Source: Methanococcoides vulcani (GTDB lineage: Archaea > Halobacteriota > Methanosarcinia > Methanosarcinales > Methanosarcinaceae). Taken from it: 64,000 bases of DNA. This document shows, in pieces, positions 18,383-27,564 of the stretch. The translations under genes and the position numbers were made by a program. Every line of letters starts with the position of its first letter. Position 1 is the first letter of the stretch. The stretch is from assembly GCF_900111645.1 (NCBI RefSeq), contig NZ_FOHQ01000001.1, positions 567,468 to 631,467 of the forward strand, given 5' to 3'. Under the pieces are notes generated by a model. It made no database searches, was not told where the DNA came from, and was given only the letters and a program-made list of their open reading frames with translations.

Positions 18383-18424
18383 TTAAATTCGATGTCTGTT
18401 TTTTTATTTATATGTGAGCATTTT

Positions 18425-18506
18425 AAAAAATCAGATATGGAATGTTAATGATTGGAATATTGATGCAAAGTTATTAGGAAACAGAAGGTTGAGGTGAGTT
18501 TTGGAA
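18425..18506 (+). repeat. Direct repeat, copy A
   Basis: This stretch resembles 19304-19390 (for example AATGATTGGAATA followed by GAAACAGAA and GAGTT in both). In both copies one frame reads WxVNDWNxDxKL, which suggests the duplicated pieces come from the C-terminus of a protein gene. Confidence 0.5.
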
Positions 18507-18556
18507 AGACACATCTTTACACACGCACGATCATCCATTCGGCCCATACTGTGAAC

Positions 18557-18814
18557 ATGATTATGATGGCACATATGGAACCGTCTACTAGATTCTGTTT
18601 GTTTATGTTTGCCCCTGTCATGATATTATTCCTCCTTGATTTATTATATCATTTGTTCACACATATCAATACCTTGACCATTCTTTGCATAATTGTGTCC
18701 ATATGTTGTGCTGTAGTGATAGTTATCACGTTTTGCATAAGTTTTAATATCAATATTAAAAATAATAAAAAATGTCAAAAATTATTTTATTTTCATTCAT
18801 ACTCTCTATGGTGA
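18557..18814 (+). CDS. Doubtful small membrane protein
   Basis: A frame with two strongly hydrophobic segments (FCLFMFAPVMILFLLDLLY and ILCIIVSICCAVVIVITFC) followed by a basic Asn/Lys-rich tail. It overlaps the start of the following lipoprotein gene by more than 40 bases in another frame and has no good ribosome binding site. It may be real, with its C-terminus overlapping, or chance in AT-rich DNA. Confidence 0.25.
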   Translation: MIMMAHMEPSTRFCLFMFAPVMILFLLDLLYHLFTHINTLTILCIIVSICCAVVIVITFCISFNINIKNNKKCQKLFYFHSYSLW

Positions 18815-19257
18815 TTATATCTGGATGTGTGAGTACTACAGAAGAAACACCATCTGATGTCGTTGAGCAGTTTGTCAATTTTCAAAAGATGGGGAAGTAT
18901 CAGGAATGCTACGATTTGATGTCTGAAGATTATCAAAATGATCATGATTTTGAAGTATTCATGGATCAATTGAAAATTAATGACAAAACTCTCGATAATT
19001 ACGCATTAGTCGAATATTTTAATGAAACTGAAGTGATTGTGGGTAATTATTCAACTGTACGAATTCATTTTATAGAGCAGTCAAACATTTCAGCTTTCCA
19101 TGAGTCTGAATTGAATGAATCTGGATCAATCTAGGACTTTCTGGAAACTCGAGAAATTGAATTATTCAAAGAACCAACTGGATGGAAATTGAAATCGGTG
19201 TACTCAGAATTGGTCGTCAACAAGGAAGACCACTATGTGCTTCATTTTAATTGTTGA
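18772..19257 (+). CDS. Small lipoprotein with in-frame amber (TAG) codon
   Basis: The first 120 codons encode a lipoprotein (signal peptide, lipobox ISGC, Cys about 19) with a DUF4878/NTF2-like look: TPSDVVEQFVNFQKMGKYQECYDLMSEDY in two consecutive parts. At 19132 comes TAG, but the same frame continues for 40 more codons to a TGA at 19255, and that part (ETREIELFKEPTGWKLKSVY) is just what the end of such a domain should look like. Full length would be 161 residues with residue 121 amber-encoded. Either pyrrolysine is inserted, or a recent nonsense mutation has truncated the gene. The function is unknown; proteins of this kind sit outside the membrane. Confidence 0.7.
19132..19134 (+). other. 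In-frame amber codon in lipoprotein gene
   Basis: A TAG at codon 121 with coding continuity on both sides in the same frame. It is a candidate pyrrolysine codon; see the lipoprotein entry. Confidence 0.6.
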
Positions 19258-19303
19258 TGCCAAAGGCAATAGTTGTCATTAATAAGAATCCAGATTTGTT
19301 TTA

Positions 19304-19390
19304 CAAAAAACAGAACTGGGATGTCAATGATTGGAATAAGGACACAAAATTATGAAGAAACAGAATGTTGAAATGAGTTCTAAAAGGGCA
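19304..19390 (+). repeat. Direct repeat, copy B
   Basis: Second copy of the block seen at 18425-18506, diverged by roughly a quarter of positions by eye, with the core AATGATTGGAATA kept. It lies directly after the amber-containing lipoprotein gene, so the whole gene may have been flanked by the duplication. Confidence 0.5.
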
Positions 19391-23805: not shown

Positions 23806-26800
23806 TCAATCTTCTGTAAATCCTTCCAGAATATCCTCTGCATCCAGATAAATGGATTGCAACTTCTCGATGGTGTCATCATCTGCATCCCACATACCAC
23901 GTTGTATCGCTTCAAGCAGACGCCCTGCCATCTGGCGCATCGCATATGGATTGTTCTCTTCTATCCATTTCCGTGTCTCTTCATCAAAGAGGAAATGATC
24001 TGCCAATGACTGGTACATCCAGGGATCTAACATATCAGATGTTGCATCCCATCCAAAAGCGTAATCAACAAGTATTGAAAGTTCCTGGGCGCCGCGATAA
24101 CCGTGTTCCTTAAGCCCGTTCAGCCATTTCGGGTTCAAGATACGGCTTCTGAAAATAAAACGCCCTTCTTCCTGTGTTGTCCGGGTTTTCGGGCGGTCGG
24201 GATCGGAACTGTCTCCTACCACTGACAGGGGATCCTTTTCTCCAAATGATTTCACTGCAGCCACCATGCCGCCATGATAGATGTAATCATCATCGTTGTC
24301 AAGTATGTCGATCTCCCTGGAATTGTGGTTCTTGATCGTCACATCAAGATCTGCGAGTCTCTGTGTGAAAAGTTCCGGCATCTTCTTTCCTTTTAACTTA
24401 CGTCCATAAGCATGTCCTCCCCATTGGACATACATTTCTGCCAGTTCCTCTCTTTCTGTCCAGCGGGAAGATTCGACCAGCTGGTCCACACCTGCGCCGT
24501 ATGTTCCGGGCGGGCATCCGAATATGCGTATAAGTGCTTTCTCACGGGCTTCTTCTTCACTCATCCCGGACTTTATGGATTCAAGCAGTTCTTCCAGAAG
24601 GTGGCGCACATAGTAGTTCTCATCTTCCGATTCATCAAGTGATGCCACCATTTCCACTCCTTCATCGATCATTTCCACAAGGTTTGGGAAAGCGTCCCTG
24701 AAAAGACCGCTAATGCGAAGCGTCACGTCGATCCTCGGGCGACCAAGTTCCTCAATGGGTATGACCTCAAGTTTTGTGATCCGTCCTCCGGCCGAAGACC
24801 ATACCGGTCTTAATCCCATGAGCCAGAGTATGTATGCGATATCATCTCCACCTGTTTTCATGGTATCCGTGGCGAACACGATAATCCCTACATTTTCAGG
24901 ATAGCCTCCCTCTTCATCGATATGCCTGTTGACCATCTGGTCTGCAAGCTTGTGGCCAACCTCCCATGCAGCAGGTGTAGGGATCAGTGAAGGGTCTATG
25001 GAATAAAAGTTTCTTCCTGTGGGAAGCAGGTGTGAGTTCCCTCGTGATGGAGAGCCGGACGGGCCAGGTGGTACATATCCGCCATCCATACCCCGCAGGC
25101 AGTTCATGACCTCATCGGTCGTAAGCCTTAGATTGGGCGCTATCACTTCACAAATATGGGACACCGCCATTTCAATTTCTGATCCGTTTGGATAAAGGGA
25201 TCGTGTATATTGGACACACTCCTCGTGTTCATAATTTTGGATATCCATCTCATGTATAAGGAGTCTTGATCTTTCATCCACATCTTCAAGCAGGGTACCT
25301 TTGAGCACACCCGTTCCTTCATGCGATCCCGATGGATCATCCTGAAGGTCACGCAGATCAAGACCTTTGTATGATGCAATACTTTCCCTGAGAGAAGGAA
25401 CCAGTCCATTGCATAATCTTGACAGGGAATACACCATCTCTGCAAAACGTTCGTCTGTCGGAGGGCGACCGAAAATATGAAGTCCGTCCTTGATCAGGTT
25501 GTCTCTGAACTCACAGATATAATCGTACAGGTCCTCAACGCGCTTTGCCAGCATCTGTATATCAGCTTCTTCCGGCAGGCCAAGGTCGTTCAGGTAATTA
25601 TGCTCTTTAACGATCTCATAGATGCTCTCCAGTACCTGTTCTGCTTTACCGGTCTCACCACTCCTTGAAGATCGGAAGTATTCCTGAAGGTTCATATCAA
25701 GGTCTGCAACTTCTGCATAGCTATCTGCACGGTTCATTGCAGGGACCAGATGGTCCAGTATAACTGCACAACTTCGCCGCTTGGCCTGTATCCCTTCTCC
25801 TGGATTATCAATGATATAAGGATAGAGGTGTGGGATCTCTCCAAGTACTACATCCGGGAAACATTCTCCGGACAATCCCACAGCTTTTCCGGGTAGCCAT
25901 TCGAGTGTACCATGGGTACCCATATGAATGACGGCCTGAACTCCAAGATCTTCAGCAAGGTATCGATAATAAGCAAGATAATGATGTGGCATCACAAGGT
26001 CAGTATTGTGATACAATGTCTCGACCTGTTCAAGGAACCCTCTTGGCGGTTGTATCCCGATAAAGACATTTCCATTCTTTACACCCGGGATCACAAGCTT
26101 GCCGTCAACCTCGAACATTTCGCCCGGAGGGGTTCCCCAATCACGACACATGACTTCCTGACATGTGGCAGGTATTTTTTCGAACCATTGCCTGTATATG
26201 TCCTTCTCTACAAGACCGGATGCCTGTTCGACCATCTGTTCAGCTGACAGCCATTCAGTATCATTGCTAACGCCTGCAAGTAGTTCTTCTACGACTTCAT
26301 TACCTGAGGACGGGATCCGTTCAACATGATATCCGTTCTTTTTCATTTCCGCAAGAAGATTTACCACACTTTCCGGGGCATCAAGTCCAAAAGCACCTCC
26401 TATACCATCACTACGTGGAGGGTTCTGGTGAAGGATAACTGCGATTTTCCTGTCCGAAGGAGGTGTTCGGCGCAGGTCTGCCCAATTCCTTGCAAGGGAA
26501 ACTACCTTATTGACCCTTTCCTAGATGGGAACCGCTTCCCGGGAGCCCTGATCTCCACTGGTCTCGGTAGTTGCTATAGGCACTGTTATTATTTGTCCAT
26601 CATACTCCGGCCAGACGACATTGGATGATAGTTCCATGGTTCCAATCCCCTGTATGTCCTCCTGCCATTGTTCATAAGAATAGTAGGTTGTCATAGCCTG
26701 TAGCACCGGTACATCCAGTGCATCAAAGAAATTGTACGTAATTTCTTTTGTAGTCCCGTCTCCCGGTGATGAAAGTGATAGCTGGGAAAAGCCCATATTT

Positions 26801-27564
26801 AGAACAAGGATCTCGATCAGTGAATTACATTGATCCATGAAGTACCGTTCAATTACATTTTTCACTCCCACAGCCCCTGTTATGGGATTCGGAGCAGATT
26901 GTGTAAATATGGCCAGTACTTCCATTCCTTTGTCTTCAAGCCCCCTTATAAGTGCATCTATGGCTTTCAAGTCACCGGTGAGCCATTGCCCCTGCCAGAA
27001 AAGAATTCCTGCTTTTGGTCTATCTGGATCCATCCTTGCAAGATGATCCTCAAGGTCCAGTATGTCGGGATGGTCCGGGTGATAGATCCCCTCGATCCTT
27101 GGACGAACGGGTTCAATTGTTTCAACATCCATCTTTGCAATGTGGTTGCAAGCCCAGAGTATCAGACCTCTGGAATTCGTTTCACCACCAAGCTGGATAA
27201 ACCTATCGACCAGTTCGTATTCTTTATCCGGAAGTCTGAAATATGGTCGTAGTTCGAGAGATTCTTCAAGTATTTCACTGTGAACGAAAACCGGAGATTC
27301 TGTCTGCTCAATATGTTCTCTTAAACGTGGGAATTTCTTAAAATATGGAACTCCACCGTGAAGTACCAGCAAAATAAGATCGGCGTCTTTAACATGTTTC
27401 AGCATTTGTTGAAAGGACCTTTCGTCTCCATCAACATCTTCAGATGTATAACTGAAAAGTTCAATATCAATACCTTCATTTTGAAGGGTCACAGCAGCTC
27501 TTGAAAGGGATGGATTACCGCCTGTTCCTGATCCAATACTTACGATCTTCATGTTATCATTCAC
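23806..27564 (-). CDS. cobN: CobN-type chelatase large subunit with in-frame amber codon
   Basis: A single 1253-codon frame from GTG 27564 (or ATG 27552) to TGA 23806, broken only by TAG at 26521-26523, codon 348. Both halves are CobN/BchH family: the first has the N-terminal domain (VLHGGVPYFKKFP, ILFWQGQW, GKAVGLSGE comes after the break), and after the break the text resumes at once with ERVNKVVSLARNWADLRR, GIGGAFGLDAPES and the metal-insertion domain (MGTHGTLEWLPGK, GGHAYGRK, GWDATSDMLD). The size fits intact CobN. The enzyme inserts a metal, cobalt in the aerobic corrin pathway, into a tetrapyrrole with help from an AAA pair (here at 36815-39792). Amber may encode pyrrolysine. Last gene of the tetrapyrrole cluster. 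Confidence 0.88.
26521..26523 (-). other. In-frame amber codon in cobN
   Basis: TAG at codon 348 of the CobN frame, between PI and ERV, in a link that in other CobN proteins runs without a break. Nothing suggests a start codon close behind it: the first ATG is 51 codons further, inside conserved sequence. Candidate pyrrolysine codon. Confidence 0.7.

Follow-up and report, generated by a model that had tools for sequence, protein, structure and literature searches.

Does the in-frame TAG of a small predicted lipoprotein gene in Methanococcoides vulcani end the protein, or is it read as an amino acid? In the 64,000-nucleotide stretch of DNA analyzed here (the window, which is part of contig C5 in a genome of 2,314,846 bases, 15 contigs, and 99.95% completeness), the frame at 18772-19257 on the forward strand translates as 120 codons, a TAG, 40 further codons, and a TGA, reading MSKIIL...SGSI-TAG-DFLETREIELFKEPTGWKLKSVY...FNC-TGA. 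This arrangement had been described in an earlier note together with the end of the frame, ELFKEPTGWKLKSVY, and the description proved exact: the amber codon, codon 121, occupies 19132-19134 and is the only TAG in the frame, the tail extends over 19135-19254, and the TGA lies at 19255-19257, giving 161 residues if TAG encodes pyrrolysine. The window copy carries no further stop or frameshift. Positions 18772-18828 encode a signal peptide of the lipoprotein type up to the cysteine at codon 19, which we take to be the lipobox cysteine; this residue and the preceding G18 are invariant in all 18 rows of our homologue alignment (A1). The gene is flanked by two copies of a 91-nt imperfect direct repeat (18421-18511 and 19300-19390, both on the forward strand, the right copy 76% identical to the left), and a DNA search of the genome itself found no third copy. 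An open tail is by itself weak evidence of translation, as 10 random substitutions create a stop in the tail in only 45% of simulated runs, and the evidence above chance for the tail thus comes from homology and not from the openness of the frame.

A PylS gene is present in this genome (TIGR03912, 133.8 bits against a cut-off of 51, E = 4.7e-39) and adjoins a tRNA-Pyl(CUA) gene; the pylB, pylC, and pylD open reading frames (ORFs) come next on the same strand. PylB scores 570 bits against a cut-off of 348 bits, and the ORF after pylC bears PylD_N. The identity of pylC is based on its position and an ATP-grasp match; a profile search with PF21360 gave no match for PylC, which we regard as a miss of the search because a pylC-like ORF sits between pylB and pylD.

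The use of TAG was assessed in the window and 39 further stretches, which together cover 766,149 bases (33% of the genome). Coding-scored ORFs of 80 codons or more numbered 605, of which 318 end at TGA, 278 at TAA, and 9 at TAG; within the first 386-kb sample, TAG accounts for 18.5% of all stop triplets. Six of these nine continue as coding sequence, which leaves three ORFs that appear to be truly terminated by TAG, namely, pylB, L105:14722-15471 (+), and L118:6059-6937 (-). The latter two are followed by 27 and 34 non-coding-like codons, respectively, up to the next stop. A stricter overlap filter listed no TAG-terminated gene, probably having dropped pylB, which a looser filter lists. A tally of stop usage by ORF length alone gave 9 TAG in 266 ORFs, but several of these nine seem to be antisense or edge artifacts; coding scores were used in its place.

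Eight cases have coding sequence before as well as after the TAG, which a single Pfam domain spans in six of them: CobN, MtmB, MtbB, a NosD/beta-helix protein, a fumarase-type lyase, and an AMP-binding enzyme. The two others are an ORF antisense to the NosD ORF, which was left out of the Pfam scan, and one without a family. The bare count of such cases (8 for TAG, 24 for TAA, and 12 for TGA) was rejected as a separator since it also includes neighboring in-frame genes, whereas the domain-spanning test does separate TAG from the other stops: a Pfam domain crossed a TAA or TGA in none of 35 ORFs (36 cases), 8 of which have no family, so that spanning could not show in them. The test considered only the best stretch per family, at E ≤ 1e-8, or 1e-5 in one scan; the remaining TAG cases were covered by separate Pfam scans. 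The TAA and TGA cases look like neighboring genes that share a frame. Among the spanning cases, the NosD/beta-helix and PKD protein, of ∼1,580 residues (L038:2387-7126, minus strand), carries its in-frame TAG ∼350 codons from its start, and the fumarase-type lyase (L109:18941-19999, minus strand) and the AMP-binding enzyme (L111:9037-10341, plus strand) are further candidate pyrrolysine proteins. Within the window, the other in-frame amber codon on which the earlier note had relied lies in a cobN-like gene at 23806-27564 on the reverse strand, where the CobN/Mg-chelatase domain runs across the TAG at codon 348 (26521-26523). The pyl genes and the domain-spanning control together give good sequence-level support to the proposal that amber codons are decoded genome-wide. 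The lipoprotein frame itself scored below the coding threshold in both genome screens and is not among the eight cases, presumably owing to its short length and AT-rich composition.

For the lipoprotein, the evidence comes from its homologues. The gene is present in 25 of 111 genomes of the family, counting its own, and in 3 of 11 within the genus. Of the two congeners that have it, G018 carries an intact copy (58% identity to the window protein) with no stop through the tail stretch. This copy is syntenic with that of the window, standing between TctA (88% identity) on one side and a conserved ORF (94%) and a ferredoxin gene (92%) on the other. The amber column is CAG (Gln) in both G018 and G023, and a single C-to-T change therefore accounts for the TAG. 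Distant homologues, mostly of genus g10, have IELVKQEDEWKITEFPY or a similar sequence at their end, aligned with IELFKEPTGWKLKSVY after the amber codon of the window. Among the other 17 rows of the alignment, only the G023 copy (L004) has its own stop within the tail, a TAA 10 codons past the amber position that replaces a leucine codon (TTA/TTG); the remaining rows extend into the tail or end at the limit of the reported or trimmed match. Hence, it is not the case that every homologue stops at codon 120, and the homology of the downstream frame is kept past the TAG.

That only one base separates the TAG from the codon of both congeners would also fit a sequencing or assembly error hiding a true CAG. 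We consider this very improbable, given a genome that is 99.95% complete in 15 contigs and the six other domain-spanning TAGs in a third of the genome with no such TAA or TGA, as random errors would have produced all three stops.

The homologues bear equally on what the tail encodes. Judged by the homologue alignment and the domain matches of relatives, the first ∼28 codons of the tail appear to form the final part of an NTF2-like domain, and the last 12 are an end absent from distant homologues. The DUF4878 label given in the earlier note is weak for the window protein, which scores 14.7 bits against PF12870 (curated cut-off, 24.1) in a match that spans only 21-59, but it is good for relatives, with L006 passing the cut-off at 24.8 bits over positions 5-111 of the 112 in the profile. 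MecA_N, which is NTF2-like, is found at E ≤ 0.01 in 10 of 18 members of the lipoprotein family and has no match at this threshold in the window protein alone. In five of six scanned relatives (L006, L010, L012, L015, and L022), MecA_N reaches the part equivalent to the tail, matching ∼1-102 of 117 profile positions and extending almost to the end of the supplied stretch; the sixth, L005, has no MecA_N match reaching that far. DUF4878 reaches the same part in L006 and L022. A stop at codon 120 would accordingly cut off the end of the domain. Weak matches to PDB entries at the family level (E = 0.007 to 0.05) include a de novo NTF2 and PBP3, the other matches being clearly spurious. No Pfam match to the pyrrolysine methyltransferases (MtmB/MtbB/MttB) was obtained for the window protein, which yielded only the weak DUF4878 match and chance matches. 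A structure prediction from the single window sequence was set aside as too poor (mean pLDDT, 41).

It could be argued that the genuine protein has 120 residues and that the tail is a chance coding-like sequence, as both the signal peptide and the best portion of the DUF4878 match precede the TAG. This notion is barely credible, since intact homologues have an equivalent of the tail, the Pfam matches of relatives extend into it, and the syntenic G018 copy, which reads through, contradicts it.

A more serious alternative is a simple nonsense mutation, which the earlier note had also entertained. On this view the gene is dispensable and decaying, any read-through has no role, and selection has ceased to act on the tail. 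The G023 TAA, a frame-shifted homologue (L027), and the presence of the gene in only 3 of 11 congeners indeed indicate a dispensable gene, and its location in a patch flanked by repeats points the same way. Substitution patterns in the tail speak on both sides. Over the whole tail, dN/dS is 0.16 between the window and G018 (bootstrap, 0.07 to 0.37; 449 of 500 resamples usable) and 0.41 between the window and G023 (bootstrap, 0.13 to 1.31), compared to 0.35 and 0.39, respectively, before the amber codon. However, as CAG persists in G023, the amber codon arose after the window and G023 lineages diverged, and a large part of the distance between the window and G018 is older than the amber codon. 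When changes are polarized with G018, the tail of the window branch has 10 nonsynonymous changes and no synonymous one, compared to 15 and 7 before the amber codon (Fisher P = 0.07), and it also differs from the tail of G023, which has 3 nonsynonymous and 4 synonymous changes (Fisher P = 0.015); a count of 0 synonymous changes out of 10 arises in 6.5% of neutral simulation runs. From this excess of nonsynonymous changes, the full-length lipoprotein may not be under selection in the window lineage. Yet, the final 12 codons, which lie beyond the domain, contain 7 of the 10 changes, and the difference disappears when the tail is cut to its domain part (P = 0.53 and 0.20), a comparison that involves three changes only and a cut chosen post hoc. 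These 3 changes in ∼28 codons compare with 22 in 117 codons before the amber codon, which argues against decay, as does the lack of a second stop or frameshift in the window copy. Moreover, TAG rarely terminates in this genome, making a nonsense effect itself unlikely. The neutral-looking substitutions in the tail and the TAA of G023 keep this explanation alive, and we judge it to be unlikely without dismissing it.

Taken together, codon 121 is very likely read as sense, and, judged from comparative sequence data, the most likely explanation of the lipoprotein TAG is a neutral C-to-T change that produced a codon decoded as pyrrolysine, given a complete pyrrolysine system and a TAG that hardly serves as a terminator. 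The gene product would be a secreted, lipid-anchored NTF2-like protein in which a CAG (Gln) codon of a variable loop was presumably turned into TAG; tRNA-Pyl(CUA) would insert pyrrolysine there, and translation would continue to the TGA to yield 161 residues. Pyrrolysine at this position is probably neutral and not catalytic. We consider this account as a whole, from the C-to-T amber codon in an NTF2-like lipoprotein to the pyrrolysine-containing 161-residue product, to be probable; we infer, in particular, the insertion of pyrrolysine at codon 121, its efficiency, and the usefulness of the full-length form. No PYLIS-like RNA structure was found downstream of the TAG (z = -0.29), and the simplest account would be that TAG is decoded generally, with no need of a local signal, as in Thg1.

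An independent in-frame TAG occurs in the copy of G064 (L022), from another genus, in the same loop and one alignment column off, where the relative L016 has GAG; the conserved end is intact past this TAG as well. As two genera have independently placed TAGs no more than one alignment column apart in this lipoprotein family, the idea arises of a recurrent pyrrolysine-gated switch, by which the full NTF2-like domain would be made only when pyrrolysine is plentiful, as during growth on methylamines, and a truncated lipoprotein otherwise, but we attach little credence to it.

Since pylB still ends at TAG (L030:6795-7907, minus strand), this codon is not purely sense in this genome. The same ending is seen in 51 of the 90 family genomes examined (95 exceeded the family cut-off; pylB ends in L051-L080 and L122-L181), with marked differences among genera: 11/11 in the genus of the window, 22/23 in g13, 8/8 in g9, 4/4 in g5, and 1/26 in g10. 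In most of the TAG cases shown, a candidate pylC start (ATG, GTG, TTG, or CTG) lies one base past the pylB TAG. As a conjecture, the pylB TAG may be a pyrrolysine-sensitive stop that couples the translation of pylC to the supply of pyrrolysine. The pylB TAG had already been noted for three species (PMC2933860, in the portion available).

With this lipoprotein, the probable pyrrolysine proteins come to include the product of a small, nonmetabolic gene, and the sampled third of the genome provides a controlled estimate in which in-frame TAGs, but not TAAs or TGAs, occur inside domains. Genes of this type, this lipoprotein and cobN among them, would be cut short by standard annotation. The change from CAG to TAG, set beside a syntenic relative that is intact, offers a clean case on whether new amber codons are neutral.

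Among known systems, the methyltransferases MtmB, MtbB, and MttB likewise have an in-frame UAG read by tRNA-Pyl, and both MtmB and MtbB with TAG are found in this genome; there, however, pyrrolysine is an active-site residue, whereas in the lipoprotein the codon lies in a variable loop with glutamine in relatives. General TAG decoding in Methanococcoides has proteomic support, and an archaeal "Pyl code," in which every TAG means pyrrolysine, was reportedly described by Kivenson and colleagues in Science in 2025. The genome studied here resembles such a code in that TAG is nearly absent as a terminator and is found inside unrelated genes, and differs from it in that pylB, and perhaps two more sampled ORFs, still end at TAG. 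A further parallel, from the available portion of PMC2933860, is Thg1 of Methanosarcina acetivorans, whose in-frame amber codon is translated as pyrrolysine that is not essential for activity; as with the lipoprotein, a single species acquired the amber codon and the gene has no connection with methylamine use, but pyrrolysine was physically observed in Thg1, while here it is predicted from sequence alone. In the available portion of PMC1242214, Chaudhuri and Yeates predicted in 2005 a read-through ORF for CobN of M. acetivorans, which shares with the lipoprotein a predicted UAG read-through and varied residues in the amber column of homologues. The cobN of the window also has a TAG, and CobN is a large conserved enzyme, in contrast to the small and patchily distributed lipoprotein. 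Neither a lipoprotein nor DUF4878 is mentioned in the available portion of the main text of PMC3639795, nor is a lipoprotein in that of PMC1242214. Amber codons in genes other than those of methyltransferases were, in any case, already known (PMC2933860, same portion), and the lipoprotein is probably a further pyrrolysine case and an ordinary example of the code expansion known in this group.
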